Shown here: one piece after another, positions 1,635-18,710 of the stretch | How the letters are laid out: each line of letters opens with the position of its first letter | Numbering within the stretch: position 1 is the stretch's first letter | DNA from: an uncultured Planctomycetota bacterium | Lineage (GTDB): Bacteria; Planctomycetota; Phycisphaerae; UBA1845; UTPLA1 | Direction: 5' to 3' | Assembly: GCA_900696465.1 (NCBI GenBank) | Contig: CAADGE010000035.1 | Coordinates: forward strand, 1 to 64,000 | Length of the DNA: 64,000 nucleotides | The notes under the pieces: generated by a model | What the model saw: the letters and a program-made list of their open reading frames with translations, nothing else | Databases searched by the model: none | What the model was told of the DNA's origin: nothing | Translations under genes and position numbers: made by a program

Positions 1635-4600
1635 ATGATGCGTAACGCGAAACTGTCGATTCGTGGTTGTTCGATTCTGCTCGCGCTGGCAGCCATGCTG
1701 GCGCTCGCTCCGTCGGCCAACGCCCTTTCCAACACCGTGGTGATCAGCCAGGTTTACGGCGGCGGCGGCTCCGGCGCCGGATCACCCTTTACGCACGACT
1801 TCGTCGAGCTGCACAATCGCGGCGACACGCCCGTCAATCTCGCCGGGTGGTCTGTGCAGGGCACCACGGCCGGCGGTACGTCGTGGAGCAAGGTAGACCT
1901 TTCGGGCACCATCATGCCCGGCGGCTACTATCTTATTCAACTCAGTTCCGGCGGTGCGAACGGCGTGGCACTCCCGACGCCGAACGTTACCGGTGCTTTC
2001 GGCCTGAGCACGGCGGCAGGTAAAGTTGCCCTCCGAAACACGAATACCACGATCACGGTAGGCGTCGGCTGCCCGACCGGTGAAGCCGCCACAGTGGACT
2101 TCCTCGGTTATGGCGCGACGGCCACCTGTTTCGAGGGTGCCGGTTCGACCGCCAATCTGAGTGTTTCCACCGCGGCCGTACGGAACAGTCTGGGCTGCGC
2201 TGAGACCGACAACAACAATCTCGATTTTACCGTTGCCGCACCCACACCGCGAAACAGCAGTTCGCCACGCGTCTGCTGTTCCCCGCCGGGCATCGACAGC
2301 GACAGCGACGGCATTCCGGACGCTTGCGACAACTGCCCGCATGTTGCAAATCCCGGACAGGAAGACGCCGACAGTGATGGCGTAGGCGATGCCTGCGACA
2401 ATTGCCCGAACCACGCAAACGCCGATCAACTCGACAGCGACTCCGACGGAATCGGCGACGCCTGCGACAACTGTCCTGACGACGCAAATCCCGATCAGGA
2501 AGACTTCGACAGCGACGGTGTCGGCGACATCTGCGACAACTGTCCCGACGATGCCAATCCCGACCAGCTCGACAGTGACGGCGACGGTGTCGGCGACGTC
2601 TGTGACGGCTGCCCGAACGATCCGAACAAGACCGAGCCGGGCCTTTGCGGTTGCGGCCAGGACGATAATCTCGATAGCGACAGCGACGGCATCGTTGACT
2701 GTCTCGACAACTGTCCGTTCGTCTCAAACCCGGATCAGGCAGATGCTGACACCGACGGTGTCGGCGATGCCTGCGATAACTGCCCGAACGACGCGAATCC
2801 CAACCAGGAAGATGCGGACAGCGACGGCATAGGTGATGTCTGCGACAACTGCCCGAACGACGCCAACCATGATCAGGCAGACACCGATTCGGACGGCTTC
2901 GGCGATGCCTGCGACAACTGTCCCGATGTTAACAATCCTGACCAGGCCGACGCGGATAAGGACGGCGTAGGTGATGCCTGCGACAACTGTCCGAAGGACT
3001 ACAACCCTGACCAGGCCGATACCGACGGCGATGGCGCAGGCGATGCCTGCGACGGCTGTCCGGAAGACCCGAAGAAGACCGAACCGGGCATCTGCGGTTG
3101 CGGCGAGTTCGAGACCGGCGATACCGACAGCGACGGTATTCCGGACTGCATCGATAATTGTCCGTTCGTTTCGAACCCCGGCCAGGAAGATGCCGACAAG
3201 GACGGCGTCGGCGACGCCTGCGACAACTGTCCGGACGTCTACAACCCTGACCAGTCGGATGTGGATATGGACGGCGTCGGAGATGCATGCGACGGTTGCC
3301 CGACCGATCCGAAGAAGACCGCGCCAGGACTTTGCGGCTGTCATGTTCCGGATGATCTCGACAGCGACGGCGACGGCATTCCCGACTGTGTCGACAACTG
3401 CCCCGACAAGGACAACCCGGGCCAGGAAGACGCGGATACCGACGGTGTCGGCGATCCTTGCGACAACTGTCCGAACGCCTACAACCCCGAACAGGAAGAC
3501 AGCGACGGCGATGGCGTCGGCGACGCCTGCGACGGCTGTCCGGACGATCCTGACAAGGTTGAGCCCGGCCTCTGCGGCTGCGGCACGCCGGATGACCTCG
3601 ACAGCGACGGCGACGGCATTGTTGACTGTCTCGACAACTGCCCGTTCGATTTCAACCCTGGCCAGGAAGATGCCGACAATGACGGCGTCGGCGATGCCTG
3701 TGATCCGACGCCTCCGAACGCGATCCACCTCGAGATTCCCTCGTGCGTGGAAAATGTCGGCGGCAAGATTCAAGTCGAGGTCTGGATGCGGAATCTGCTG
3801 GATCCGGTAACCGGATTCTCAGCTTTCATCCAGTACGACTCATCGAAGCTGACCTTCCAGGGCACCCAGAGCTGCTACACGGAATGCGAGGAAGATGACG
3901 TCGATCCGCCGTGCGGCACCGGCCCCTTCACCATCCACGTCCCGGGCAACATCGGCCAGGCGCTGGGTTCGTGTACCGTGAATACGGCGCTTCTGGGCAT
4001 CAGCGGCGGCGTTGCGGTTCCGCCGAACCCGAACAATCCCTGCAGTCAGCCGTGGGGCCCGGGCCTCGCGCCACGCGAGGGCGATGCGCTCCTGGCGATC
4101 CTGGTCTTCACCGTCACCGCGCAGGATGACTGCGTAACCACCGAGGGGCTGACGCTCGTTCAGTGCGGCGTGCTACCCTCGACCCTCAGCTTCCAGGGCA
4201 GCCCGATCATGACCAACCTGGTCAATACGGGCTCCTTCACCATCGATTCCACGTTCCCGGAACTCACCTGCCCGCCGACGGCGTATGTCGAGTGCGACGG
4301 CTCGTCCGATCCGAAGTACACCGGCTTTGCCAATGCAACGGACAACTGCGGCGAGGTCGATGTGACCTACGTGGATGAAGTCGCTCAGGGCAAGTGCCCG
4401 GCCGAGCAGACCATCTACCGTACCTGGTACGCGACCGATGCCTGTGACAACACGAGCGAGTGTGTCCAGACGATCTACGTCATCGATTCGACGCCGCCGG
4501 TCATCACGTCCTGCGAGGCAGAAGGGGGTACGCTGGATTCAAGTTGCACCGGTGTGATCACCTTCTCGGCCACGGCGACGGACAACTGCTGCATCCACTC

Positions 4601-7600
4601 GGGCGGTATCCTCGTCGATGCCGAAGTCGTTTCTGGATACGCGAGCTTCGTCAGCATCGACTTCGGGAAGCCCAATCAGATCAGCCCGACGGAGGTCTCG
4701 ATCAGCGGCAGTCTGGTCTACAGCGTCCATCCGGGCTGCGAAGCAGAGATCGCCGTGATCTTCGAAGCCATCGATTGCTGTGGCAATCACAGCGGCGGCC
4801 AGGTTCCGCGCGGAGACATCAAGGGCGGCGGCAAGAAGGAAGGCGACGGCTACTGCGTTGCCTACGCCACACTCCGCGATGAGACTCCACCGGAGCTGTT
4901 CTGCCCGAAGGATGCGGTCGTCGAATGCAGCGGCGGGATTGTCCCGTCGAGCTTCGGATCGTGCTGCCTCGGCCCCAACGAGTGCATTGATACGACGGAT
5001 ATCGATTGCAGCAACCGCGGAGGCGCCTTCAACGCCGACATCTTATGCTCCAGCGGTATCTGCGATGCCCCCGAGTGCGCAGCCGCGACCTGTGCGACCT
5101 TTGTCCCCTGTGCACCGAACCCCGATTGCGTCTGTGCCAGTCTGGCAGGCGGCGGGGCCAGCGGCGTCTGCGTCGATGGCAGCACGCTATGTGCTACGCT
5201 GATCCCCTGTGATGGCGAATCCTGCCCGCCGGGCTCCGTGTGCGCGATCAATTCGTGTTGCTTGATTCCGGTCTGTGTACCGCAGGAAGTCTTCTGCGCC
5301 GCCTCGAACGGCAACAAGCAGAAGTCTCGACTGTTGCCGCCGCCGGGCACGTTGACCTTTGCTGGTGTCGTGCAGGACCACGGCCCTGGCATGCACATGG
5401 AATCGCTCGACCTGTCCGCTCAGCGGGCCGGTGCGCGAGGCAGGCAGTGCCAGAATGGTGACCCCACCTCGCCCGACAACACGGGCTACGCTTATGCCGA
5501 GGACAACTGCACCTCGCAGCCGGCGGTTGATTACGAGGATGTGATCACCCCTGGCAAGTGCCCGTCGGAATACACGATCACGCGAACCTGGACGGCGACC
5601 GACGATTGTGAGAACTCGTCCGAGTGCGTCCAGACCATTGAAGTCGTTGACACAACGCCTCCGTCCATCGGCGGCAAGGCCTACGGCAACATCGGCGAGG
5701 AGTGCACCGCGACGGTCTACTTCGAGGCCTATGTGTGCGACAATTGCTGCATCGATGGAAAGGACGGCATCAGCGTGGAGGTCAACGTCACCGGTGCTTC
5801 CGCCGGCGAGCCGGACTACAGCATCTCGGACGCCAAGGGATGTCTGCTCGTCTCCGGCTCGGTCGAAGTGTACGACCTCGAGGGCTGTTCGGCCGACGTG
5901 GTGGTGACGGTCCACGCAACCGACTGCTGCGACAACGCGAGCAGCGAGGATCTCGAGCTGTCGATCTTCGACAAGGACGGCCCGGCGATCGAGTGTCCTC
6001 CCGACAACCTGAAGCTGCCGTGCGGTTCCGACATCGATCCTTCGGTGACCGGCTACGCGACGGCGACAGACAACTGCAGCGAGGAAGGCGAGATCGACAT
6101 CGGCTACGAAGACGAAGTGCAGGAGAATCCGCCTTGCGTCTTCCGAACGTGGACAGCCACGGATGCCTGCAAGAACACGAGCAGCTGCGTCCAGACGCTC
6201 TGCTTTGTGGACAAGGTCCCGCCGATCATCTCCTGTCCGATTACGGACTTCTATGAGTGCATCGAAGAAGTGCCGCCTCCGGCCGAAAACCTCGAAGAAT
6301 TCGAGGAGATCGGCGGATCGGCCTCAGACGACTGCGGTTACGTGGAAGTCACGCTCAAGCAGGAGTTCGTCAGCCCCGGCGACGGCTGTGAGGCGCCGAA
6401 GATCATCGTGCGGATTTACGAAGCCCGCGATGCCTTCGACAACACCGCCGAGTGCAAGCACGTGATCATCGTGCAGAACACGATGGCCCCGTCGATCACC
6501 GGCGACGATCCCGAGCCGGCGGCTGTAAATAACAACTGCAAAGCGCCGGTGGAATTCAGCGCGACGATCCTGGATTGTTGCGTCGATGACAAGTCCATCA
6601 ATGTGCAGAAGATCGGTGGCACGGGCTGGATTGCCAATACGACAATCCTGGAAATCGAGGGCGGTTACGAAGTGGTCGGTACGGCCATGGTGGTCGTGCC
6701 TTTCGATGCCTGCGAATCCACGCTGCTGATCGAGATCACGGCGAGCGATTGCTGCGGTATCACCGGAGAGCCGCTCGTCCTGACGGCGACAGGTCGCGAC
6801 GAGACTCCGCCGGTCATCTACTGCCCGCCGGACGTCGAGCTCGGCTGCATGGAGACTCCGGACATGCTGGAAATCACCGGTATGCCCGAGGTCTATGACG
6901 CCTGCTCAAACGTTTCCAGCGTTTACTATGAAGACAGCGAAGAAATGCCTGATCCGCTGCACATCATCCGCACCTGGTACGCGGAAGACAGCTGCGGTAA
7001 CGTCAGCTCCTGCGAACAGATGATCACCCTGAGCGACACCGATCCTCCGGTATTCGTTTCCTGCGAGGCCTCGGACATGTCGATGGGCGAAGGATGCTGC
7101 ACGTACGTCTATTTCTCCGCGGAGATCTTCGACCAGTGCATCGATACCCGCTACTGCGATTACGATCTGGCCGCAGGTATCGAGAACGGTGGCTTCTACT
7201 CGTGCTGCTATGACAAGGGTGTTCCCCGTGGTAACGGTAAGTACGATGATTGCCCGGTATCTGTCTGTGCCAGCGGAGACCTGGGGTACATCGACCCCTG
7301 TGTGGTCTACAAGTTCTATTCCGGCAAGGAAGACGGGCAGTACTTCATCGAGGGATACGTCTGGGTCTGCGACCTGCTGACCTGTCCGGCGAACCTCGAC
7401 ATCACGATCACCGTGCGTGACTGCTGCGGCAACGAGTCGTCCTGCGTGGCATCGGCCACGATCACGGACGAATCCGAGCCGTACTTCGTCAACTGCCCCG
7501 AAGAGCCGATCGTCGTCAGCGCCGATCCGGGCCAGTGCGAGGCCTACGTTGAGCTGCCGAAGCTCATCGCCCTCGACAACTGCCCCCTGGAGAGCGACTA

Positions 7601-8525
7601 CCAGGGCGAGGATGACAAGGCTCGGAGCGGTTACTACAACATCCCGGTTCACTGCTCACACGAGAGCGGCGTCTTCCCGGTCGGCATCACCACGGTGACC
7701 TGCACCGCCGAAGATATCTGCGGCAATGTCGCAGAGTGCACGTACGACGTGGAAGTGACCTTCACCAACACCATCCGGGCACATGTCCAGCTCCGCGGCG
7801 TCAATGCCGGCGGCGGCTCACGGACCCGCTGCATCAAGTTCGTGCCCAAGTCGGGCGGCGTATGCAGTGACCCGGTCTTTGTAAACGTGACCTTCACCGG
7901 CGGTCTGCCGGGTGCGACGGGTACGGCGGTCTTCGAAGTGCCGTGCGGCGACTATGACGCCATCTGTGCGAAGGATGAGCAACATACGCAGTACGACTCG
8001 CAGGCCCTGATCATCAACGGGACCGAGTTCCAGACGGCGGCCACCCTGGTGCTCATCGGCGGCGACACGGACAACGACAGCGACGTTGACATCAACGACC
8101 TGACGTGGTTCCTGCTGCAATTCGGTCAGGCGGCGGTCAACCTGCCGTGCGGACCGTTCACGCCGACGCCGCTCACGCGCGATGCGGACTTCAGTCTCAA
8201 CAGCATCGTTGATGCCTTCGACCTGCAGTTCTTCAACTCGCCGGCCGGATTCCCGATTCAGCCCGTGCCCTGCACGTGCGATCCGGTGGGCCTCGCGCAG
8301 CCGGGCGGCAGGTTTGCCACGCCGCTCGAGTCGATGCGCGTCTCCGTACCGATCGGCGAGCTTGATCCGCAGGTTGGACCTGCTGTCGACTTCAACAACG
8401 ACGGCATTTTCGATTACCGCGACGTTGAGATCTTCGAGCGTCAGCACGGTCTGACGAACGAACTCTCCGCGAAGATGAAGTCCCTGACGCCGGCGACGCC
8501 GAAGAGGGCCCTCCGGCCGCAGTGA
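1635..8525 (+). CDS. Giant secreted multidomain protein: lamin-tail, TSP3, cohesin-like, HYR-like, dockerin-like
   Basis: A 2296-residue exported protein. GAGGAG precedes the ATG-ATG start. Residues 1-30 are a signal peptide ending A-N-A. Residues about 32-190 match a lamin-tail domain (ISQVYGGGG, FVELHNRGD, GWSVQ). Residues about 219-692 are TSP3 repeats of DNCPxxxNPDQxDxDxDGxGDAC type mixed with GLCGCG units. Residues about 696-870 look like a cohesin (GFSAFIQYDSSKLTF). Residues about 871-2045 alternate HYR-like modules ending RTWxATDxCxN-SxCxQTI with a second Cys-rich module ending DCCGN. A Cys-rich block is inserted inside one HYR-like module (about 1104-1276). The end has dockerin-like Asp loops (DTDNDSDVDINDL, DFNNDGIFDYRDV). 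No enzyme domain is visible. Likely a calcium-dependent surface or matrix scaffold. Confidence 0.9.
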   Translation: MMRNAKLSIRGCSILLALAAMLALAPSANALSNTVVISQVYGGGGSGAGSPFTHDFVELHNRGDTPVNLAGWSVQGTTAGGTSWSKVDLSGTIMPGGYYLIQLSSGGANGVALPTPNVTGAFGLSTAAGKVALRNTNTTITVGVGCPTGEAATVDFLGYGATATCFEGAGSTANLSVSTAAVRNSLGCAETDNNNLDFTVAAPTPRNSSSPRVCCSPPGIDSDSDGIPDACDNCPHVANPGQEDADSDGVGDACDNCPNHANADQLDSDSDGIGDACDNCPDDANPDQEDFDSDGVGDICDNCPDDANPDQLDSDGDGVGDVCDGCPNDPNKTEPGLCGCGQDDNLDSDSDGIVDCLDNCPFVSNPDQADADTDGVGDACDNCPNDANPNQEDADSDGIGDVCDNCPNDANHDQADTDSDGFGDACDNCPDVNNPDQADADKDGVGDACDNCPKDYNPDQADTDGDGAGDACDGCPEDPKKTEPGICGCGEFETGDTDSDGIPDCIDNCPFVSNPGQEDADKDGVGDACDNCPDVYNPDQSDVDMDGVGDACDGCPTDPKKTAPGLCGCHVPDDLDSDGDGIPDCVDNCPDKDNPGQEDADTDGVGDPCDNCPNAYNPEQEDSDGDGVGDACDGCPDDPDKVEPGLCGCGTPDDLDSDGDGIVDCLDNCPFDFNPGQEDADNDGVGDACDPTPPNAIHLEIPSCVENVGGKIQVEVWMRNLLDPVTGFSAFIQYDSSKLTFQGTQSCYTECEEDDVDPPCGTGPFTIHVPGNIGQALGSCTVNTALLGISGGVAVPPNPNNPCSQPWGPGLAPREGDALLAILVFTVTAQDDCVTTEGLTLVQCGVLPSTLSFQGSPIMTNLVNTGSFTIDSTFPELTCPPTAYVECDGSSDPKYTGFANATDNCGEVDVTYVDEVAQGKCPAEQTIYRTWYATDACDNTSECVQTIYVIDSTPPVITSCEAEGGTLDSSCTGVITFSATATDNCCIHSGGILVDAEVVSGYASFVSIDFGKPNQISPTEVSISGSLVYSVHPGCEAEIAVIFEAIDCCGNHSGGQVPRGDIKGGGKKEGDGYCVAYATLRDETPPELFCPKDAVVECSGGIVPSSFGSCCLGPNECIDTTDIDCSNRGGAFNADILCSSGICDAPECAAATCATFVPCAPNPDCVCASLAGGGASGVCVDGSTLCATLIPCDGESCPPGSVCAINSCCLIPVCVPQEVFCAASNGNKQKSRLLPPPGTLTFAGVVQDHGPGMHMESLDLSAQRAGARGRQCQNGDPTSPDNTGYAYAEDNCTSQPAVDYEDVITPGKCPSEYTITRTWTATDDCENSSECVQTIEVVDTTPPSIGGKAYGNIGEECTATVYFEAYVCDNCCIDGKDGISVEVNVTGASAGEPDYSISDAKGCLLVSGSVEVYDLEGCSADVVVTVHATDCCDNASSEDLELSIFDKDGPAIECPPDNLKLPCGSDIDPSVTGYATATDNCSEEGEIDIGYEDEVQENPPCVFRTWTATDACKNTSSCVQTLCFVDKVPPIISCPITDFYECIEEVPPPAENLEEFEEIGGSASDDCGYVEVTLKQEFVSPGDGCEAPKIIVRIYEARDAFDNTAECKHVIIVQNTMAPSITGDDPEPAAVNNNCKAPVEFSATILDCCVDDKSINVQKIGGTGWIANTTILEIEGGYEVVGTAMVVVPFDACESTLLIEITASDCCGITGEPLVLTATGRDETPPVIYCPPDVELGCMETPDMLEITGMPEVYDACSNVSSVYYEDSEEMPDPLHIIRTWYAEDSCGNVSSCEQMITLSDTDPPVFVSCEASDMSMGEGCCTYVYFSAEIFDQCIDTRYCDYDLAAGIENGGFYSCCYDKGVPRGNGKYDDCPVSVCASGDLGYIDPCVVYKFYSGKEDGQYFIEGYVWVCDLLTCPANLDITITVRDCCGNESSCVASATITDESEPYFVNCPEEPIVVSADPGQCEAYVELPKLIALDNCPLESDYQGEDDKARSGYYNIPVHCSHESGVFPVGITTVTCTAEDICGNVAECTYDVEVTFTNTIRAHVQLRGVNAGGGSRTRCIKFVPKSGGVCSDPVFVNVTFTGGLPGATGTAVFEVPCGDYDAICAKDEQHTQYDSQALIINGTEFQTAATLVLIGGDTDNDSDVDINDLTWFLLQFGQAAVNLPCGPFTPTPLTRDADFSLNSIVDAFDLQFFNSPAGFPIQPVPCTCDPVGLAQPGGRFATPLESMRVSVPIGELDPQVGPAVDFNNDGIFDYRDVEIFERQHGLTNELSAKMKSLTPATPKRALRPQ
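2290..3715 (+). repeat. TSP3 coding repeat array
   Basis: About twenty degenerate repeats encode DNCPxxxNPDQEDxDxDGVGDAC units (about 69 bp), with longer CGCG-containing units interspersed. Copies differ more at DNA level than those of the next gene, suggesting an older array. Confidence 0.8.
4945..5460 (+). other. Cys-rich module inserted in an HYR-like domain
   Basis: An HYR-like module starts before this block (ELFCPKDAVVEC) and resumes after it (TGYAYAEDNC, then ITRTWTATDDC). The inserted stretch of about 170 residues is unusually rich in Cys and starts with a GSCCLGPNECIDTTDIDC segment. That segment resembles the short GACCLPDGxC modules seen in other planctomycete secreted proteins. 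Frame is kept throughout, so it is a domain insertion and not a frameshift. Confidence 0.6.
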
Positions 8526-8580
8526 TGCACGAAATCGAGGCGCGGCCCAGCGCAGCGCCTCGTATCGAATAAGCTCTCCC

Positions 8581-8615
8581 GCGCTGCGGTCTTCTGATCC
8601 AGAAGGCCGCAGCGC
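8581..8615 (+). terminator. Strong hairpin after the 2296-aa gene
   Basis: A long hairpin: GCGCTGCGG at 8581-8589 pairs with CCGCAGCGC at 8607-8615. Inner CTTCTG/CAGAAG arms close an ATC loop. The 3' flank is only moderately T-rich (TTGTCCGTTAGTTGTT). It lies 56 bp after the stop and 84 bp before the next start. It probably terminates or attenuates read-through between the two TSP3 genes. Confidence 0.6.
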
Positions 8616-8699
8616 TTGTCCGTTAGTTGTTCTGGGGGGATGTCCATGTCTCGGGTACGCGCTTAAGAACCGCGGCTCGGGTCATCAGGGAGAAGAACA

Positions 8700-11600
8700 A
8701 TGTTCTCAAATCTGAGTGCTACCCCCCGTCTTACTCGTTTGCGCGCGCGGATCTGCGCGGCGGTGCTGTGCCTGGCTGCTTGTCTGCATCTTGCATGGAG
8801 CACCCCGCTCCGTGCGGCGGTGGACGTCTCGCTCAGTCCGCCGCTGACGGTCGTGCCGCTGACCTCGCTGAACCCGGCCCCGATCGTGCTGATCGACCTG
8901 CGGGTTCGCTCCACCAGCGGGTCCCCTGAGTGCTTCTCCTCGGTCGAAGCGATCATCAGCTACGACCCGACGAAGCTCCTCCTGCTCGGACGAACCAATG
9001 TCAATTCGGCCTTCAGTTGGTTCACCGATGGCTTCCTCTCCGACCCGGACGGCATCAACAACAACATCGGAGACGGCCTGGCCCTGTACTTCGGCTTCGG
9101 TTCCGGCAGCAGCAACTTCGCGACGCCGGCCGGCAACATCGCTACGACGCTGCGATTCCGCGTGCTGGCGCCGACAGATGGCACCACCGTCTCCCTGCTG
9201 GACAGCAGCGGCTCCAAGGCGGAGACCCGCGTCCTGGACTGCAACTTCGGTGACATCACCGGCGACATCTCCCAGTCCGCCGTCGTCAAGGTGGTGGACT
9301 GCCTCGCCGGCGGTGCGGACAGTGACGGCGACGGTTTTCCCGATACCTGCGACAACTGCCCGAACCATGCCAACCCTTTGCAGCAAGACAGCGATGGCGA
9401 TGGCGTCGGCGATGCCTGCGACGGCTGCCCGGATGATCCCGACAAGACCGAGCCGGGCGTCTGCGGTTGTGGCGAACCCGATAGCGATTCCGACAAGGAC
9501 GGCACACCCGACTGTGAAGATGGCTGTCCCGATGATCCTAACAAGACGGAACCCGGCGACTGCGGTTGCGGAGTGCCGGATACGGATTCCGACGGTGACG
9601 GTACGCCGGACTGCATCGACGGCTGTCCCAACGATCCGAACAAGACCGATCCCGGTGCCTGTGGTTGCGGCGTCAGCGATGACGACTCCGACAGCGATGG
9701 CACGCCGGACTGTGTCGACGGCTGTCCGGATGATCCCAACAAGACCGAGCCGGGCATCTGCGGCTGCGGCGTCAGCGATGCGGATTCTGACGGCGACGGC
9801 GTGCCGGATTGCCAGGACGGCTGCCCCGATGATCCCGACAAAACTGAACCGGGCATCTGCGGCTGCGGCGAGCCCGATACGGACTCGGATGGTGACGGCG
9901 TTCCCGATTGCGAAGACGGCTGTCCAGATGACCCCAAGAAATCCGAGCCGGGCTTCTGCGGCTGCGGTGAACCGGACACCGATTCCGACGGTGACGGTAC
10001 GCCGGACTGCGCCGATGGCTGCCCGGAAGATCCGGACAAGACCGAGCCGGGTTACTGCGGCTGCGGCGTCAGTGATGAGGATTCCGACAAGGACGGTACA
10101 CCGGATTGCGTCGACGGATGCCCCGATGATCCGAACAAGACCGAACCGGGTATCTGCGGTTGCGGCGAGTCCGATGACGACTCCGACAGCGACGGTACGC
10201 CCGACTGCCTCGACGGCTGTCCGGACGACCCGAACAAGACCGATCCGGGCATCTGTGGCTGCGGCAAGTCCGACGGTGATTCCGACAGCGACGGAGTGCC
10301 GGATTGCGAAGATGGTTGCCCCGACGATCCCAACAAGACCGAACCGGGCGCTTGCGGCTGCGGTGTGAGTGATGATGACTCCGACAGCGACGGCACACCC
10401 GACTGTCTCGATGGCTGCCCGGACGATCCGAACAAGACAGACCCCGGTGCATGTGGTTGCGGCAAACCGGATACAGATTCGGACGGCGATGGCACGCCGG
10501 ATTGCGCAGACGACTGCCCCGAGGATCCGAACAAGACGGAACCCGGTGCATGTGGTTGCGGCAAACCCGATACCGATTCTGACGGCGATGGTACGCCAGA
10601 TTGTGTTGACGGGTGTCCGGACGATCCCAACAAGACCGAGCCGGGCATCTGTGGCTGTGGAGAATCGGACGACGATTCCGACAGCGACGGCACACCGGAT
10701 TGCAACGACGGGTGTCCGGACGATCCCAACAAGACCGAGCCGGGCATCTGTGGCTGTGGAGAATCGGACGACGATTCCGACAGCGACGGCGTGCCGGATT
10801 GCGAAGATGGCTGCCCCGACGATCCCAACAAGACCGAGCCGGGCACCTGCGGCTGCGGTGTCAGTGATGATGACTCCGACAGTGACGGCACACCGGATTG
10901 CGAAGATGGCTGCCCCGACGATCCCAACAAGACCGAGCCGGGCGCCTGCGGCTGCGGTGTCAGTGACGATGACTCCGACAGCGACGGCACACCGGATTGC
11001 GAAGATGGCTGCCCCGACGATCCCAACAAGACCGAACCCGGCGTCTGTGGTTGCGGCGAACCGGATACGGATTCCGACGGTGACGGCACTCCGGACTGCA
11101 AGGACGGCTGCCCTGAGGACCCGGATAAGATCGAACCGGGCGCCTGCGGCTGCGGTGCGAGTGATGATGACTCCGACAGCGATGGCACGCCGGACTGCAT
11201 CGACGGCTGTCCGGACGATCCCAACAAGACCGAACCGGGCGCCTGCGGCTGCGGTGTCAGTGATGATGACTCCGACAGCGACGGCACACCGGACTGCAAT
11301 GACGGTTGTCCGGACGATCCGAATAAGACGGAGCCCGGCGTCTGTGGTTGCGGAAAGCCGGATACGGATTCCGACGGTGACGGCGTGCCCGATTGCGAAG
11401 ACGGTTGCCCCGATGATCCGAAGAAGACCGACCCCGGCGTGTGCGGGTGTGGCGAACCGGATACCGATTCGGACGGCGATGGCACGCCGGACTGCAAGGA
11501 TGGCTGCCCGGAAGACCCGGACAAGACCGAACCGGGCATCTGCGGCTGCGGCGTATCCGATGTCGACTCCGATAAAGACGGCGTACCGGATTGTCTCGAC

Positions 11601-11924
11601 GGCTGTCCGGATGATCCGAACAAGACGCAGCCCGGTATCTGCGGCTGCGGTGAGGACGACACGCTGGACAGCGACAAGGACGGCGTACCGGACTGCAACG
11701 ACGTCTGCCCGTTCAATGACTTCGGTATTCCGGTGCGTATCGACGGTCGTCCGAAGTTCGACATCAACGAAGACTGCGAAGTGAACCAATTGGATCTCGA
11801 CGTATGGATTGAGGAAGACGGCCTGCGTCCGCCGCCCTGCGGCGTCAGTACAGGCCTCGGCGCCGCGCTGACACTGGTCGGCTTCGCCGCGATGAAGGTG
11901 CGACTGCGCCGACGACGTCGGTAG
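8700..11924 (+). CDS. Secreted cohesin-like/TSP3-repeat protein with C-terminal membrane anchor
   Basis: A 1074-residue exported protein. An N-terminal signal peptide ends near residue 40 (T-P-L-R-A). Residues about 41-205 form a cohesin-like beta domain (SSVEAIISYDPTKLLLLG, then ATTLRFRVLA), clearly homologous to the start of the gene at 12029. Two classical TSP3 units follow. Then come 22 uninterrupted 33-residue units, with consensus EPGxCGCGxxDxDSDxDG and [15 protein letters not shown], plus a partial last unit. A dockerin-like loop (DINEDCEVNQLDLD) precedes a C-terminal GLGAALTLVGFAAM hydrophobic stretch and an Arg-rich tail. This tail resembles PEP-CTERM-type sorting signals but lacks a PEP motif. 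Likely a calcium-stiffened surface stalk. No catalytic residues were seen. Confidence 0.9.
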   Translation: MFSNLSATPRLTRLRARICAAVLCLAACLHLAWSTPLRAAVDVSLSPPLTVVPLTSLNPAPIVLIDLRVRSTSGSPECFSSVEAIISYDPTKLLLLGRTNVNSAFSWFTDGFLSDPDGINNNIGDGLALYFGFGSGSSNFATPAGNIATTLRFRVLAPTDGTTVSLLDSSGSKAETRVLDCNFGDITGDISQSAVVKVVDCLAGGADSDGDGFPDTCDNCPNHANPLQQDSDGDGVGDACDGCPDDPDKTEPGVCGCGEPDSDSDKDGTPDCEDGCPDDPNKTEPGDCGCGVPDTDSDGDGTPDCIDGCPNDPNKTDPGACGCGVSDDDSDSDGTPDCVDGCPDDPNKTEPGICGCGVSDADSDGDGVPDCQDGCPDDPDKTEPGICGCGEPDTDSDGDGVPDCEDGCPDDPKKSEPGFCGCGEPDTDSDGDGTPDCADGCPEDPDKTEPGYCGCGVSDEDSDKDGTPDCVDGCPDDPNKTEPGICGCGESDDDSDSDGTPDCLDGCPDDPNKTDPGICGCGKSDGDSDSDGVPDCEDGCPDDPNKTEPGACGCGVSDDDSDSDGTPDCLDGCPDDPNKTDPGACGCGKPDTDSDGDGTPDCADDCPEDPNKTEPGACGCGKPDTDSDGDGTPDCVDGCPDDPNKTEPGICGCGESDDDSDSDGTPDCNDGCPDDPNKTEPGICGCGESDDDSDSDGVPDCEDGCPDDPNKTEPGTCGCGVSDDDSDSDGTPDCEDGCPDDPNKTEPGACGCGVSDDDSDSDGTPDCEDGCPDDPNKTEPGVCGCGEPDTDSDGDGTPDCKDGCPEDPDKIEPGACGCGASDDDSDSDGTPDCIDGCPDDPNKTEPGACGCGVSDDDSDSDGTPDCNDGCPDDPNKTEPGVCGCGKPDTDSDGDGVPDCEDGCPDDPKKTDPGVCGCGEPDTDSDGDGTPDCKDGCPEDPDKTEPGICGCGVSDVDSDKDGVPDCLDGCPDDPNKTQPGICGCGEDDTLDSDKDGVPDCNDVCPFNDFGIPVRIDGRPKFDINEDCEVNQLDLDVWIEEDGLRPPPCGVSTGLGAALTLVGFAAMKVRLRRRRR
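9450..11627 (+). repeat. 22 in-phase 99-bp tandem repeats
   Basis: The unit beginning with the Glu/Asp-Pro-Gly codons recurs every 99 bp. It does so from 9450 to 11627 without any insertion or deletion, and a 23rd partial unit starts at 11628. Some neighbours are almost identical. The stretch at 10618-10689 reappears at 10717-10788. Such an array is prone to unequal recombination and is a likely site of copy-number variation and of assembly error. Confidence 0.9.
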
Positions 11925-11981
11925 GACGAATTCCGAGTCGTCCGTGCCCGAGATTCGATGACTAAAACGAAGAACCGATGC

Positions 11982-12012
11982 CCTGCCGGCGTCCAACTCG
12001 GGCGCCGGCAGG
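11982..12012 (+). terminator. Hairpin just before the next TSP3 gene (terminator-like or attenuator)
   Basis: CCTGCCGGCG (11982-11991) pairs with CGCCGGCAGG (12003-12012) around an 11-nt loop. No T-run follows. The ribosome site GGAG (12017-12020) starts only 4 nt later, so the structure could modulate translation of the gene at 12029 as well as transcription from upstream. Confidence 0.4.
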
Positions 12013-12028
12013 AAATGGAGACGTTTTC

Positions 12029-13819
12029 ATGTTCATCAATGCTCGGGGAACGATCCGTACTTGCGCGCCGAAACGGTCTGTCCGCTGCCTTTCGATGATC
12101 TTTTCCGCCCTCGCCCTCCTCGGGTTCGGCACGGCTTCCGCAACCGCGGACGTCGACATTCAGCTATCACCGCCGCTGATGGTCATTCCGCTGGAGACCG
12201 GCAGCGCCCCGGTAATTCTGGTTCAGCTTCGGTTGCAGTCCGACAGTGGCTCTCCCGAGTGCTTCTCCTCCATCGAAGCGATCATCCATTACGACCCCGC
12301 CGTGTTGAAGCTGCTCGGCCGTACCAACAGCGGATCGAGTTACTCCTGGTTGACGGACGGCTTTCTTCTCGATCCCGATGGCCTTAACAACAACATCGCT
12401 GACGGCGAGGCCCTCTACTATGGCTTCACCTTCGGCGGTTCAAACGCCAACCCGCCGCCCGGTAACCTCGCCACCACCTTGCGCTTCGAAGTGCTGGCCC
12501 CCTCGGCAGGCACCGTGATCAGTCTGGCGCCTTCGGCGGGTGCTTCCTCCTTCACGCGCGTACTGGATTGTGATTTCGGAGAGAGCACCGGCGATATCTC
12601 AGCGACAACCACCGTACGGATCATCAGCTGTCCGAACATGGGCGCCGATACCGACGGCGATGGCTTCCGCGATGCCTGTGACAACTGCCCGACAGTTTCG
12701 AATCCGCTCCAGCAGGACAGCGACGGCGACGGCGTAGGCGATGCCTGCGACAACTGTCCGGATGATCCCAATCCCGACCAGGAAGACGCCGATTCTGATG
12801 GCATCGGTGATGCTTGCGACAATTGTCCGCTCGCGCCCAATGTGAATCAGGCAGATGCGGATTCGGACGGCGTGGGCGACGCTTGCGATAACTGCCCGCT
12901 CGACGCGAACCCGGATCAGGAAGACACCGACGACGACGGTGTCGGCGATGTGTGTGATAACTGCCCGAACACCGCGAACCCAGATCAGGCCGACAGCGAT
13001 TCGGACGGCCTTGGCGATGCCTGTGACAACTGCCCGTTCGTGTCGAACGTCGACCAGGCCGATGGCGACTCCGATGGCGTCGGCGATGCCTGCGACAACT
13101 GCCCGAACCATCCCAACCCCGATCAGGAGGACGCGGATTCCGACGGAACCGGCGACGCCTGCGACGGCTGCCCGGATGATCCCAACAAGACCGAGCCGGG
13201 CATCTGCGGCTGCGGCGAAGACGACTCACTCGACAGCGACAGCGACGGCGTGGTGGATTGTCTCGACAACTGCCCGTTCGTGCCCAACGCGAAACAGGAG
13301 GATGCCGATTCAGACGGCGTGGGTGACGCCTGCGATAATTGTCCAGGTGACTACAACCCGGATCAGGAAGACGCCGATACGGACGGCGTAGGCGACGCCT
13401 GCGACAACTGTCCGAATGATCCCAACCCCGATCAGGAAGATGCAGATGCCGACGGTCTCGGCGACGCCTGCGACAACTGCCCGAATGATCCCAACCCCGA
13501 TCAGGAAGATGCAGATGCCGACGGTCTCGGCGACGCCTGTGACAACTGTCCGCTTGTGCCCAACCCCGACCAGAAGGATTCCGACGGTGACGGCATGGGC
13601 GACGAATGCGACGTGTGTGTAAACCGCCGTCCGGGCGACGTCAACGGCGACAAGATCACCGACCTCGACGACATCGAGTTGTTCGTCATCGTGGCGCTGA
13701 ATCCGGAACTCTTCATCGGGTCGGATGAGTACTGCGCCGCAGATGTAAACGAGGACACGCTCGTGGACGGTCTCGATGTCCAGCCGTTCCTGGAACTGCT
13801 CCTGCAGTCCGGACCGTAG
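12029..13819 (+). CDS. Secreted cohesin-like/TSP3/dockerin-like protein
   Basis: A 596-residue exported paralogue of the gene at 8700. The ATG at 12029 is chosen because GGAG lies 8 nt upstream and a signal peptide (ending A-T-A near residue 40) follows directly. An upstream ATG at 11978 would place 17 residues in front and fall inside the hairpin. Residues about 41-200 are the cohesin-like domain ([18 protein letters not shown]). Residues about 204-527 are TSP3 repeats, mostly 23 residues long. Residues about 528-596 form a dockerin-like pair ([18 protein letters not shown] and [17 protein letters not shown]). Carrying both a cohesin-like and a dockerin-like end, it could act as an adaptor in an extracellular assembly. 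Binding is not shown by the sequence. Confidence 0.88.
12650..13610 (+). repeat. TSP3 coding repeats with a recent 69-bp duplication
   Basis: Units encode [23 protein letters not shown], with a 69-bp period for most copies. Units 13412-13480 and 13481-13549 are identical except for two third-position changes near the end, which indicates a recent duplication. Confidence 0.8.
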
Positions 13820-14213: not shown

Positions 14214-14330
14214 TCAGCGCTGCTCGGCGTCGTCTTCCGCGCGAAGCGCCTGCTCGTGTCGGTCGATGATATCCTGATCGTTGTGACAACCCGTCTGCAA
14301 ACACGCCGCACCGGCCAGAACCAGCAGCAT
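14214..14330 (-). CDS. Very small predicted lipoprotein (38 aa)
   Basis: A 38-residue frame starting MLLVLAGAACLQTGC has a good lipobox (LQTGC) with Cys at residue 15. A short hydrophilic, charged tail follows (HNDQDIIDRHEQ, then acidic). The start is uncertain: the ATG at 14330 has no clear ribosome site and no basic residue before the hydrophobic stretch, so an upstream non-ATG start is possible. It sits just downstream of a terminator on the same strand. The lipobox is the main support, and the call may be wrong. Confidence 0.4.
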   Translation of the reverse strand: MLLVLAGAACLQTGCHNDQDIIDRHEQALRAEDDAEQR

Positions 14331-14389
14331 CGCTATCGCACGGAATGTGTTTCCGACAACTCGCGATGGGTGGGACGCAGCGAAACGGC

Positions 14390-14424
14390 AAGAAGAAAAA
14401 GCCCGGGAAGCTCGCTCCCCGGGC
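14390..14424 (-). terminator. Rho-independent terminator
   Basis: On the minus strand GCCCGGG pairs with CCCGGGC around a 10-nt loop and is followed by TTTTTCTTCTT. It closes the LPP20/small-lipoprotein transcript 71 bp after the stop at 14496. Confidence 0.85.
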
Positions 14425-14495
14425 TTTCGAACAATTTGATGCGACAATCGTGCGTAGATCGCGTGCACTTGATTGCCTCACCCCGGGCGACCGAC

Positions 14496-14651
14496 TTACT
14501 CGACGATCATCGTCCCCGGTGACTGATCCTGCGGAGCGGACTCGCGCTGCTCCTGGGTTTCCTGTGTGGTCTTGTACTCATTCTCCGAACAGGCGGAGAA
14601 CGGCGCCGTCAGACAGACGACAAATGCAAGAATAAGGATTTTGCGAAACAT
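14496..14651 (-). CDS. Small predicted lipoprotein (51 aa)
   Basis: ATG at 14651, preceded by AAAGG at a spacing of 8 nt. The 51-residue product begins MFRKILILAFVVCLTAPFSA and has Cys at residue 21. That is a short type II-like signal with an imperfect lipobox (F-S-A-C). The mature part of about 30 residues is polar and rich in Gln and Glu. It starts 38 nt after the stop of the LPP20-repeat gene and ends before a strong terminator, so it is the last gene of that transcript. Function is unknown. Small lipoproteins in such positions can be accessory parts of envelope complexes, but this is inference. Confidence 0.65.
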   Translation of the reverse strand: MFRKILILAFVVCLTAPFSACSENEYKTTQETQEQRESAPQDQSPGTMIVE

Positions 14652-14689
14652 GGAATGAACCTTTCTCGATGTTGCTCAGGCGTCTGGCC

Positions 14690-16009
14690 TTATCGCATCT
14701 TCTGTACGCGGATGTAGGTGTGAACGACCTCCCAGATCTTCATGCCGGGCATTTCGACGACCACTGTCGCCGTGCCTTCGTCGTCATAGCGCGTGGACTT
14801 AACATACGCGCCCTGAAGATAGGCATTCAGTTGCGTATTGATCTGGTCGTGCTCGGCGACAAAGTCTCGAACCGTCGTCGACGAGTCGATCCGGAAACCC
14901 ATCACTTCCTCGCCCAGTCGGCGCTTGGCGTCCAGCTCCGCGGCCCGGGCAGCCATCAGCTTGCCCTGCGGTGTGCCCGCCTTGTCAGCCGGAGGAACGC
15001 CCATGCCCTCGGCACGAATCGGCTGAGCGGCCCAGTCGGGGATCGGGGTCGGCATGCTGCTCGCGACCGCCTGAATGGCCTGCGGTCGAGGTACGCCCAT
15101 GCCTACGGCGTCGAAGGTCTGGCTCTTGATGTGCTGCGTGACCTGCTCGATGTCTGAACCGGTCACCCGGTCTCCCTTGTAATGTCGCTTGTGCAGCGTC
15201 TTGATCGTGGTGATGACCGACTCGACCGGCACTTCGACGGTGACTTCGACAATCAGCTCGTCATGATGGAAATAGGGCTTGCCCACTTCGCGCGCGCCGA
15301 CCAGCATCCCCTGGGCCTCGGCATCAATCACGTCGGACTCGGCAACGAAGTCGCGCACGCGCGTCTCGCTTGTGACCCGAAGGCCCTTGATGCGCTCGAG
15401 CAGCTTTCGCTTGGCGTCCAGCGAGGCAGCCCGCTGGGCCATCAGCCGCTCCTGCGGCGGAATCGACTTCCAGATCGCCGGAATGGCCGGCTCCGGGGCC
15501 GTCACACCGCTGGGCATCGGCAGATCGCCGCCGGGTACATCGGGCGGAAGTTCGGGTCGGGGAACACCCATGCCGATGACCTGGACGACATCCTTCTGCA
15601 CGTAGCGCTTGATGCTCTCAAAATCCTCGGCCTTGAGGGTCTTGCCCTTGTAATGGCGTGAGTGAATCTGCTTGAGTTCTTCGATCACCCGGGCCACAGT
15701 GACTTCGGCCTCAATGCTGCAGGTGCCTTCGGAGTCCCACTTGGGCGTGCCGAACCGCACACCGCGAATGAACCCGTCAAAGTCCGTCCGGATCTGATCC
15801 GACTCGGCGACAAAATCGCGCACATACGTCTCCGAGGTGATCTGCAATCCCTGCACCGTCTCGCCGAGCTTCCGATAAGCGTCGGCCTCGGCCGCACGCT
15901 TGGCCAGCAGCTTGTTCTGCGCGTCACGCTGCGCGTCCTGCGCCAGGCAGATCGTCGGCAGCACCGCGAACGCCAGGAACATCGCCAGGGATGTAGCAGT
16001 TCGATTCAT
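14690..16009 (-). CDS. Exported protein with three LPP20-like repeats
   Basis: 439 residues, with GGGAG 8 nt before the ATG. A signal peptide covers residues 1-23 (ending C-L-A). Three homologous segments of about 120 residues follow. Each starts with a coiled A-x-R-A-A-x-x-D/A-A-x-R-K/R-L helix, then G-hydrophobic-x-I/V-x-S-x-T-x-V-R-D-F-V-A-E, and ends in a beta strand with E-V-T-V or V-V-E-M. The two linkers share GMGVPRP. This matches the LPP20 family (as in Helicobacter Lpp20 and Vibrio FlgP), usually single-copy outer-membrane lipoproteins. Here no lipobox is present, so it may be periplasmic. It lies 108 bp downstream of a CsgG-like lipoprotein gene and 38 bp upstream of a small lipoprotein, probably one transcript. 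Confidence 0.82.
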   Translation of the reverse strand: MNRTATSLAMFLAFAVLPTICLAQDAQRDAQNKLLAKRAAEADAYRKLGETVQGLQITSETYVRDFVAESDQIRTDFDGFIRGVRFGTPKWDSEGTCSIEAEVTVARVIEELKQIHSRHYKGKTLKAEDFESIKRYVQKDVVQVIGMGVPRPELPPDVPGGDLPMPSGVTAPEPAIPAIWKSIPPQERLMAQRAASLDAKRKLLERIKGLRVTSETRVRDFVAESDVIDAEAQGMLVGAREVGKPYFHHDELIVEVTVEVPVESVITTIKTLHKRHYKGDRVTGSDIEQVTQHIKSQTFDAVGMGVPRPQAIQAVASSMPTPIPDWAAQPIRAEGMGVPPADKAGTPQGKLMAARAAELDAKRRLGEEVMGFRIDSSTTVRDFVAEHDQINTQLNAYLQGAYVKSTRYDDEGTATVVVEMPGMKIWEVVHTYIRVQKMR

Positions 16010-16117
16010 GTTCGAGTCTCCCGTAAGTAAGAGGAACCGTGCTCGTTACGCTGATCTCATCTCGCCGGCGCAACCGTCGGCGCGAACGCATGCAGTGAAC
16101 GCTCGCCCTGCACGGCA

Positions 16118-17155
16118 TCAGCCGGCACGGGAGACACGCTGAATCGCCGCGTTGTAAGCGGCATTATCCGTCTTGAAGGACTGCGCCATCTTGTAGTACT
16201 TCCGGGCATCATCGTAGCGCTTGAGCTTCTCGCAGGCCACGCCCGCGCCGAAGAGCGATTTGTGATCGGTGCCGTCCGCGGCGATCGCCTGCTTGAAGCT
16301 GCCGAGGGCCGCCTCGTAGTCTTCCATGATCAGGGCGCGGACACCGGCGACGCTGTCTTCATTGCTCGAATGTTCGACGCGAATTTCCTCCGAAAACTCG
16401 ACCGGTATGAACTTGCAGAGAAACTCCTTCGCCTGCTGCTCGATGATCGCCCCGATGGCCCGGTCCCGCGGCGTCATGTCCGCTTCCGTCTTGCTCGAAC
16501 CAAAGAAGAAGCCCGACTTGGTGTTCTCGAAGTGCTGCGACGGCATGGCATTGTGCGATACAATTATGTCGTTCGTCGCCGGGTCCTTGAGCTGGAACTG
16601 GCACGTGACCGTGATATTTCGTGCCTCCTCATCCACCTCCGTCGAGTCCACGCCGCCGCCACCGTATCCGCCGCGCGACCAGCCGCCGCCGAAGACCGAC
16701 ATGGCATCGATCGTGCGCTTCTTGCCCACCTGCTTGTCGATCTTGATCGTCACCTTGCTCGTCAGGATCGCCTTGGCGCCCTGGAGCTGTGCGGCCCCCA
16801 TGGCATCGCCGCTGTCAGTTACGCCCGCTGAGGCCAGGTCCTTCTCGCCCATGGCAAACTTCAGATGCTCTCGATCCACCAGCTTAAAGGGCATGTGATA
16901 CTTCTCGCGTGCCTGCTCCAGATAATGCTGCAGCATATCCGCCGTCATGCTCGACCATTTCGCCTGATCAACCTGAGCATCCGACTCGTCCATCCGGGCA
17001 TTCAGCACGGCGACCTGCATGTACTGCTCGCTGAGAACCGTCTTCGGCTGGGTGCGCTCGTTGAACGACACCGTGGCAATCTGCGACTTCGGGGTGCAAC
17101 CTGCAAAAACGGCGAGAACCAGACACGATGCAACACCGGCGATGACTGACTTCAT
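16118..17155 (-). CDS. CsgG-like/TPR lipoprotein
   Basis: 345 residues. The ATG at 17155 is preceded by AAGGAG and begins a clear lipoprotein signal (MKSVIAGVASCLVLAVFAGC, lipid Cys at 20). The middle part resembles CsgG/FlgO-type proteins: a strand around VAVLNARMD, a helix, then GAKAILTSKVTI followed by a strand ending VTCQFQLKDPATNDII. A Gly-rich loop (VFGGGWSRGGYGGGG) interrupts it. The last 90 residues are TPR-like helices (Y-E-A-A-L-G-S-F-K-Q-A-I-A-A-D-G). CsgG family members form or assist outer-membrane export pores. Full pore-forming transmembrane strands are not obvious here, so an assembly factor is equally possible. Pairing with an LPP20 protein supports an envelope role. Confidence 0.68.
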   Translation of the reverse strand: MKSVIAGVASCLVLAVFAGCTPKSQIATVSFNERTQPKTVLSEQYMQVAVLNARMDESDAQVDQAKWSSMTADMLQHYLEQAREKYHMPFKLVDREHLKFAMGEKDLASAGVTDSGDAMGAAQLQGAKAILTSKVTIKIDKQVGKKRTIDAMSVFGGGWSRGGYGGGGVDSTEVDEEARNITVTCQFQLKDPATNDIIVSHNAMPSQHFENTKSGFFFGSSKTEADMTPRDRAIGAIIEQQAKEFLCKFIPVEFSEEIRVEHSSNEDSVAGVRALIMEDYEAALGSFKQAIAADGTDHKSLFGAGVACEKLKRYDDARKYYKMAQSFKTDNAAYNAAIQRVSRAG

Positions 17156-17408: not shown

Positions 17409-18710
17409 TCACGGCGTGTCCGGTTGTGTGGTACTGCCGACCGAGGGCTTCGGAACGATCGGAACAGGGGGCCGGACCGTCGGCCGGTCGGGCTTGTCCT
17501 CCGGAGGCACGTCCGGCGGTTTCGGACCGCCGACGATCAGCGGCTTGGGTGGCGGGGTATGACCGGTCCTGACCTTGAGCAGGTGCGCCCAGCCGGTCTT
17601 GAGTTCCATGGTACCGCTGCGCTCCGATTCGACCGAAGCGGTCAAGTGCAGCTCACGGTGCAGGTTCAGCGTGTAAAGCTCACCTCGCGCCAGGTCGAAC
17701 TCCACCGTTCCCTTGCAGGTCGAACGTTCAATCCGGAATTCGCGCTGCTGATTCGCGCGCGGCGACTGACCGGGCCGAGTCGTCGGCTGTGGAGCCGGCT
17801 CCAGCACCACATCTCCGAGCAGCTCGATCCTTGCGATTCGGCGGTCACCGAGTTTCTTGACCGATTGCAGCGTACAGTGGAGCGTCGTTGCGACCTTGCC
17901 GAAGTTCTTCATGTCATCGGTATATTCGCGCGTCCACGTCTCGCCGATCGCCACCGGTTCGACCGGCATCCAGTACGGGCCGAGGTCGTGAAGCAGGGCG
18001 GTCAGGTTCGATTCATTGAGCTGGCACTTGGTGGCGATCTTGCTCAGCGGGCGGCGCGTGGTCTCGCCGGCCGGTTTCGCCGGCGTGATGTTGAAGCTCT
18101 CCGTGCGGCTGTTGCGCGGATCGATAAAAAAAGAAACCTTCGCCCCGGCGACGGTACCGAGTTCCCACAGCGAGGGCGGCGGATAGATGTGCCGGACTGA
18201 ATCGTACGTCAGAGTATCCTTCATTCCCTGTTCAGTGACTTCGTAGCGCTCGACCTTCCAGAGAATGGTCATCAGCGGGTCGTCCTCGGCCTCCTGCGTC
18301 GTCGCCTGACGCAGCGTGTTCGGCATCACCCTCTGGCTGATTGTCTTGCGATCCTTGATCGTTGTTGAATACGACAGCAGCGGCGGAACCCCGCCGCTCT
18401 CTCGAAACTCGCTCTCGATGACGTAATACAGCATGTCGCCGGGTACCAGCCCGAGCGAAAACGAGACGAGATCACCCGCTGCGACATCGCGGACGGGCTT
18501 CTGCGGCGCTGCGGAAGCGGTCTCGACCAGATGATCCGGCTTTGTGGAAATCGGCTGCTCTGCAACCGGCGCGCGCGTCACGGTGCTCATCTCTGCCGCT
18601 TCATCTGAGTCACGAGTAATGCCCCGGTCGATGTTGGCGGGATTCGCGCAAGCCGGACCCAGCAGTGCCACTGTAAGAAAAAACAGGGGCGTCCATGCGA
18701 ACTTTGTCAT
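17409..18710 (-). CDS. Large lipoprotein of unknown function
   Basis: 433 residues. MTKFAWTPLFFLTVALLGPAC gives a type II signal with Cys at residue 21. After a linker rich in Thr, Ala and Glu there is one domain of about 300 residues with many beta strands (VPGDMLYYVIESEF, IKDRKTISQRV, IGETWTREYTDDM). It resembles planctomycete lipoproteins that measure or bind at the envelope, but no family could be named with confidence. The C-terminal 40 residues are Pro-rich. The gene lies 75 bp downstream of rplU on the same strand, while a separate promoter seems to serve the next lipoprotein gene. Confidence 0.7.
   Translation of the reverse strand: MTKFAWTPLFFLTVALLGPACANPANIDRGITRDSDEAAEMSTVTRAPVAEQPISTKPDHLVETASAAPQKPVRDVAAGDLVSFSLGLVPGDMLYYVIESEFRESGGVPPLLSYSTTIKDRKTISQRVMPNTLRQATTQEAEDDPLMTILWKVERYEVTEQGMKDTLTYDSVRHIYPPPSLWELGTVAGAKVSFFIDPRNSRTESFNITPAKPAGETTRRPLSKIATKCQLNESNLTALLHDLGPYWMPVEPVAIGETWTREYTDDMKNFGKVATTLHCTLQSVKKLGDRRIARIELLGDVVLEPAPQPTTRPGQSPRANQQREFRIERSTCKGTVEFDLARGELYTLNLHRELHLTASVESERSGTMELKTGWAHLLKVRTGHTPPPKPLIVGGPKPPDVPPEDKPDRPTVRPPVPIVPKPSVGSTTQPDTP

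Follow-up and report, generated by a model that had tools for sequence, protein, structure and literature searches.

Conserved FlgP-, FlgT- and CsgG-type genes in a planctomycete order: a possible outer-membrane ring or disc machine independent of flagella

The locus and its conservation

We examined a 64,000-nt stretch of DNA from an uncultured Planctomycetota bacterium (contig CAADGE010000035.1 of assembly GCA_900696465.1), hereafter the window, and in it a group of minus-strand envelope genes that we call the module. An earlier note, made from the letters of the sequence, had listed these genes and a hairpin between positions 14214 and 17155, and all of them are indeed present there. In order of transcription, the module consists of a CsgG-fold lipoprotein with C-terminal tetratricopeptide repeats (TPRs; 16118..17155, 345 amino acids (aa), TPR helices at ~16124-16360), a periplasmic protein of three LPP20/FlgP-type domains (triple-LPP20; 14690..16009, 439 aa, with D1 at ~15563-15934, D2 at ~15089-15463 and D3 at ~14720-15034), micro-lipoprotein 1 (14496..14651, 51 aa, with a conserved C-terminal SPGxM-VE-type motif), a terminator-like stem-loop (14397..14428) and, beyond it, micro-lipoprotein 2 (14214..14330, 38 aa from its ATG). 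The hairpin between the two micro-lipoprotein genes does have the 14-pair stem and T tail of the terminator noted earlier, but such sites are about as frequent here as in shuffled sequence: scanning of 6 kb returned 6 against 4.5 +/- 2.1 in shuffles. Since this count is near expectation and the same 6-kb scan revealed no promoter-like site, the stem-loop is only suggestive of a terminator.

The module was then compared across 101 genomes comprising the bacterium's own (G000) and those of its genus, family and order, with families labelled f1 to f8 by kinship. Triple-LPP20 was matched in 71 of these at E <= 0.001, and 65 of the 71, own genome included, were kept as whole or mostly whole; the protein is partial or in pieces in G060, G082 and G084, and weak or partial matches in G023, G038, G051, G061, G068 and G077 were counted as negative. 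With 71/101 genomes positive in the order and 19/392 (G000 included) in a phylum-wide sample, triple-LPP20 is largely confined to one order, and is patchy even there. Crateriform pits were rejected as a candidate structure, as they are described in Planctopirus and Gemmata (PMC5394234, in excerpt) but triple-LPP20 occurs in so few genomes of the phylum. A scan of named genomes yielded 66 loci. By title, 52 of them are planctomycete, many from Phycisphaerae or Phycisphaerales and one called just 'bacterium'; the remaining 14 (L153-L166) belong to Selenomonadales, and their LPP20-type proteins match the triple-LPP20 profile over short lengths. We found no paper describing the module in planctomycetes in the PMC subset searched, which does not show that none has been published.

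Gene linkage was scored at 65 loci chosen by triple-LPP20, which is hence present at each by construction. The same-strand neighbour was a CsgG-like gene in 38 of the 65 genomes (set of 44/53 matches, E <= 1e-30) and a second LPP20-type paralogue in 23, while a FlgT-like gene lay within 2.3 kb in 22. At least one of the three stood beside triple-LPP20 at 62/65 loci; in the remaining genomes, G060, G062 and G084, no more than 200 bp of contig is left downstream. In family f4 the CsgG-like gene was adjacent at only 1/20 loci, some of which have short upstream sequence. The proposal that these genes form one envelope group thus gains strong backing from linkage inside the module, and the data support a real, conserved and co-inherited envelope set of flagellar-ring-type parts. 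Its chromosomal position varies even between members of the genus: the congeners G001 and G002 (L244, L245) keep rplU and the next gene, a homologue of 17409-18710, with no module beside them; it lies elsewhere in G002 and is absent from G001.

The earlier note had further proposed that the set exports or anchors the neighbouring giant proteins, that is, the products of three consecutive plus-strand open reading frames (ORFs) rich in TSP3-type repeats at 1635-13819 of the window, and had called for a survey of linkage with TSP3 genes among relatives. That survey, run by repeat pattern within fetched flanks of differing length (some only a few kb), was negative: TSP3 genes occur near the module in 1/65 loci, the window only. 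There is therefore no comparative support for a module serving the giant neighbours.

Domains of the encoded proteins

Triple-LPP20 of the window matches PF02169 (LPP20) at E 1.9e-9 with 38.3 bits against a cut-off of 25.9, two stretches passing, and so do all 26 members of the family alignment (A2; best 1.2e-17). The three repeats seen by the earlier reader were borne out and are 41-42% identical to one another. In a tree of their 78 domains from 26 proteins, the domains cluster by position, 26, 25 and 26 of 26 falling together with supports of 0.71, 0.82 and 1.00; the triplication therefore probably predates the families sampled. Because the signal peptide of the window protein is, by eye, of type I, and no lipobox was seen either there or in the alignment, the chain is probably not a lipoprotein and in this respect departs from the outer-membrane lipoproteins of the LPP20/FlgP family.

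Comparison of the family profile with the PDB proved the likeness to FlgP, already raised in the earlier note together with FlgO and CsgG, to be a good lead, as each of the three domains finds FlgP-type chains among solved structures. D3 matched 9hmf_C at 5e-14, D2 matched 8z5n_2 (FlgP) at 1.6e-8, and D1 matched chains called lipoprotein or FlgP in 9yfg, 9yec and 9yds at 6.8e-8 to 3.4e-7. The title of 9hmf names the C. jejuni flagellar periplasmic scaffold, that of 8z5n the LPHT ring; we infer that 9hmf_C, named 'Lipoprotein, putative', is FlgP. In phmmer, D3 aligns to 9hmf_C gap-free over 80 residues, spanning the stretch that we equate with the FlgP insert linked to ring formation (PMC12222027, in excerpt). 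This insert-equivalent stretch, between the SHS2 helix and the second strand, is conserved in all three domains and partly helical in the monomer model. We predicted structures of triple-LPP20 and the CsgG-like protein as monomers, with mean predicted local distance difference test (pLDDT) values of 77.5 and 74.3, respectively. D3 of the former superimposes on H. pylori Lpp20 with Z 9.8 and a root-mean-square deviation (rmsd) of 2.9 over 94 residues (VIA); VIA matches for this model covered mainly D3, so that absences among them carry no meaning. Other multi-domain chains with FlgP/Lpp20-type domains are Campylobacter FlgQ, which resembles a two-FlgP repeat (PMC12222027, in excerpt), and HP1454, with three distinct domains of which the first is Lpp20-like (PMC11756786, in excerpt). 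Unlike these, triple-LPP20 consists of three homologous repeats.

The first gene of the module was confirmed to encode a TPR lipoprotein, with C-terminal TPRs as its Pfam matches and a lipobox recognized by eye. Its CsgG-like label held in part: PF03783 occurs in 4 of 19 aligned family members (A1; best 1.8e-5) and the fold is predicted, but the window protein itself does not match PF03783, and a search of its own genome with this family was empty. Foldseek matched the model to CsgG (4uv2; E 6.9e-6, probability 1.00, template modelling score (TM-score) 0.24-0.31), HpaA (4e-6), a 352-residue LPHT-ring chain that we take as FlgT (1.8e-4), PelC (2e-4) and FlgT 3w1e (1.6e-3), mostly with low TM-scores; VIA matches were filled by TPR proteins, and absences among them are likewise uninformative. 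Profile comparisons were weaker: the CsgG-like domain profile (A5) had no relevant match in the PDB, hhalign against E. coli CsgG scored 21.7 (E 0.025), where the best of 40 shuffled decoys reached 19.3, and alignment of A5 to the FlgT-like profile was not significant. In a crude and not decisive scan, the would-be membrane hairpin 1 was comparable to that of E. coli CsgG, and hairpin 2 was less amphipathic. On its predicted structure, we read the 16118-17155 product as a member of the CsgG/HpaA/PelC/FlgT fold group in which no sign of a pore was seen. It differs from that group by added TPRs and by the lack of clear pore hairpins or of a significant sequence match to E. coli CsgG. Identity with FlgO was rejected, PF17680 being neither among the Pfam matches of the window protein nor found in its genome; this family matched in 19/101 genomes and in no control genome. 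Elsewhere in the genomes lie proteins with two tandem CsgG-like stretches (G000:C46:202653-203681 in L081, also L083-L086). MafA, likened to CsgG, has a homologue in Phycisphaerales (PMC7738311, in excerpt).

These data bear on two further readings. A CsgG-like channel with an LPP20 periplasmic adaptor might export the giant neighbours or other surface proteins, as the predicted fold, the lipoprotein signal seen by eye and the PF03783 matches of some relatives would allow; the poorly amphipathic hairpin 2, the want of a significant match to E. coli CsgG, the near absence of TSP3 genes and the uneven adjacency of the CsgG-like gene, above all in f4, make this highly improbable. Curli were rejected, since curlin (PF07012) occurs in 0/101 genomes and the E. 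coli control matched, a result that speaks against the export pore too. Also improbable is a part in an envelope transporter or a polysaccharide export system resembling that of PelC, itself a CsgG-fold lipoprotein. PelC is among the fold matches, TolC-type (OEP) and HlyD-type genes adjoin the module in L072 (9194-12976; family f5) and, by gene clusters c14/c15, in L070 and L088 (f5), and the tandem CsgG-like paralogues of G000 and G002 adjoin repeated gene clusters that were read, unscanned, as ABC-transporter genes. Across the loci compared, however, the families share no transporter or polysaccharide gene next to the module, and efflux genes are common; the adjacency is given here without a background rate.

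Downstream of triple-LPP20, a small lipoprotein ORF was detected by script at 50 of the 62 loci where 300 bp or more of sequence was available, compared with 149/2600 random windows; a looser pattern added three, bringing micro-lipoprotein 1 to 53/62. The 51-residue lipoprotein of the earlier note is thus real and conserved among relatives, as a family of 49-86 aa present in 5/6 families with the module. A PGx(M/V/I/E)-type motif is present in 44 of these 53 lipoproteins, and in 45 the last residue is E or D. This C-terminal motif is repeated two to four times in L088 (8309-8542), L206 and L212, as if its copy number could vary. Eighteen aligned members returned no convincing family (best E 0.0024 in Pfam, 0.0013 in NCBIfam), and the family is apparently unnamed. 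An EEVD-type TPR clamp that might hold the micro-lipoprotein tail was rejected, since a comparison of the TPR residues with the clamp positions gave no clamp. Micro-lipoprotein 2, proposed tentatively before, looks real from its relatives: besides G000, three genomes of the window's family (G006, G009 and G010) have, downstream of the same gene, an ORF that combines a lipobox with a C...(D/E)RHE pattern. The G006 copy matches by 56% over 34 aa (E 1.2e-7), and that of G010 gave no tblastn match at 1e-4; pattern matches in G003 and G014 look unrelated and were discarded. Its start is uncertain, because the signal peptide read from ATG 14330 has no basic residue.

Co-occurrence with FlgT-like genes and uncoupling from flagella

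FlgO, FlgP and FlgT are parts of the H-ring in Vibrio. The FlgT-like family was first met beside the module, mainly in f4, and FlgT_N matched 6/7 of its members (best 5e-6). For co-occurrence we used 67 of 69 matches at E <= 1e-40, a set that excludes weak matches of the same profile to triple-LPP20. Among all 101 genomes, 61 have both triple-LPP20 and a FlgT-like gene, 4 triple-LPP20 alone, 6 FlgT-like alone and 30 neither; in the 63 high-quality genomes these figures are 43, 0, 1 (G055) and 19. FlgT-like genes are therefore found in 43/43 module-positive and 1/20 module-negative high-quality genomes (Fisher p 3e-15, which ignores shared ancestry). The FlgT-like gene is unlinked to the module in f1, as are those of the window's own genome (G000:C29:136042-137178 and G000:C20:22048-23151), and there the 97% complete G001 lacks triple-LPP20, CsgG-like and FlgT-like genes, all three of which its congeners G000 and G002 possess. 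For the CsgG-like gene and triple-LPP20, the high-quality set divides into both 30, triple-LPP20 alone 13, CsgG-like alone 1 and neither 19. The neighbours of FlgT-like genes (RRF, H+-PPase and others) offered no functional hint.

Flagellar markers are widespread in these bacteria: of the 101 genomes, 98 have rod/hook proteins, 94 FlhA and 99 FlgI matches. Many encode a second, longer FlgI-matching protein, so that a FlgI match alone is no proof of flagella; this protein, of ~520-740 aa, matches the first two thirds of FlgI (G000:C5:30290-30976 and equivalents). The module might be a flagellar accessory ring, the equivalent in planctomycetes of an H-ring or basal disk, that stabilizes the motor or the surrounding outer membrane in some lineages. 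Flagellar chains among the closest solved relatives of the LPP20 domains, the FlgT_N-like partner, the near-ubiquity of rod/hook matches and, in G006, a FlgI gene ~30 kb from the module on the same contig favour this, as does Helicobacter, where a lipoprotein gene directly 3' of flgP encodes a product on which a ring close to the outer membrane depends (PMC11756786, in excerpt). Yet triple-LPP20 showed no association with rod genes or FlhA in the 63 high-quality genomes (p 1 each): of those with rod and FlhA matches, 20 lack it and 42 have it, and all three rod-less genomes of the set of 101 (G048, G074, G075) carry it. In the single-contig G003, G014 and G047 a distance of at least ~1.4 Mb separates it from the FlgI, rod and FlhA matches listed. 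Among the genomes compared, which are some of the set only, most showed no linkage of the module with flagellar genes. By these counts triple-LPP20 is not tied to flagella as a part of an H-ring or basal disk would be, which argues against an obligate flagellar role, and we consider the accessory ring rather unlikely.

The clearest case of uncoupling is G075, a 98% complete genome with no FlhA, no rod/hook match and only the longer FlgI-like protein, which keeps triple-LPP20, the CsgG-like gene, the micro-lipoprotein and two FlgT-like genes. Its congener G097 has both flagellar genes and the module. Between the two, triple-LPP20 evolves with a nonsynonymous to synonymous rate ratio (dN/dS) of ~0.13, and their dN distances to G099 are similar, both for triple-LPP20 (0.241 for G075, 0.227 for G097) and for the CsgG-like domain (0.274 and 0.255), hence no clear relaxation in G075. 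These rates point to purifying selection on the module in a genome devoid of flagellar markers.

A candidate periplasmic ring or disc scaffold

Given the domains, linkage, co-occurrence, conservation and uncoupling from flagellar genes described above, we favour, at close to even chances, a module whose products make up the outer-membrane side of a ring- or disc-shaped scaffold in the periplasm, composed of the same types of part as the flagellar H-ring and basal disk but with no obligate tie to a flagellum. Triple-LPP20 would be a covalent trimer of FlgP-type domains, the insert regions of which would pack side by side into a ring; by analogy with the innermost basal-disk ring of C. jejuni, modelled as 51 FlgP in 17 trimers (PMC12222027, in excerpt), such a trimer could be a natural ring unit. 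The CsgG-fold/TPR lipoprotein may form or cap an outer-membrane ring and offer its TPRs for partner binding, and the FlgT-like protein, encoded elsewhere in this genome, may be a further scaffold part. Micro-lipoprotein 1 would use its conserved C-terminal motif to tether the apparently non-lipidated triple-LPP20 to the membrane; since this motif persists in f4, where 19/20 loci have no CsgG-like neighbour, its partner would be triple-LPP20 or the FlgT-like protein. A parallel is Helicobacter FapH, also encoded directly 3' of an LPP20-type ring gene, flgP (PMC11756786, in excerpt), although micro-lipoprotein 1 is a family of its own with its own C-terminal motif, likened to FapH by gene position and not by sequence. 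The fuller claim is of a ring or disc machine at the outer membrane that is independent of flagella, occurs mainly in one planctomycete order and combines FlgP-, FlgT- and CsgG-type parts with a new micro-lipoprotein tether; this possibility we put forward more tentatively.

Several points weigh against this scaffold. Independence from flagella draws mainly on one good draft genome, G075, the other rod-less genomes being less complete (G048 72%, with FlhA; G074 87%), and some module-negative genomes, for example G038, hold other LPP20-type relatives. On the side of structure, Foldseek found no match of the triple-LPP20 model at E <= 0.001 (best 0.023, Lpp20), the VIA comparison tested mainly D3, the insert regions are partly helical and not hairpins in the monomer model, and the predicted structures are monomeric only, with no ring or complex among them; the CsgG-fold matches combine low TM-scores with an rmsd of ~7-17 A. 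FlgP and Lpp20 are lipoproteins, and the triple-LPP20 chain seemingly is not. The FlgT-like label is weak, two FlgT_N scores (21.3 and 18.3 bits) falling below the Pfam cut-off of 28.8, and its co-occurrence with the module is partly linkage in f4, where the gene mostly adjoins it, besides the shared ancestry that the p-values ignore.

The origin of the outer-membrane rings of complex flagellar motors is an open question. A co-inherited set of FlgP-, FlgT- and CsgG-type proteins that does not follow flagella makes it testable whether such rings exist without a flagellum. Micro-lipoprotein 1, being under 90 aa and thus easily overlooked by annotation, nonetheless recurs in nearly all families with the module. 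The triple chain would covalently fix three ring subunits, as a natural counterpart of the trimeric repeat of the C. jejuni basal disk. If the proposal holds, the H-ring/basal-disk kit of flagella would exist outside them; it would then be either a kit redeployed in this lineage or an extant relative of the parts that flagella recruited.

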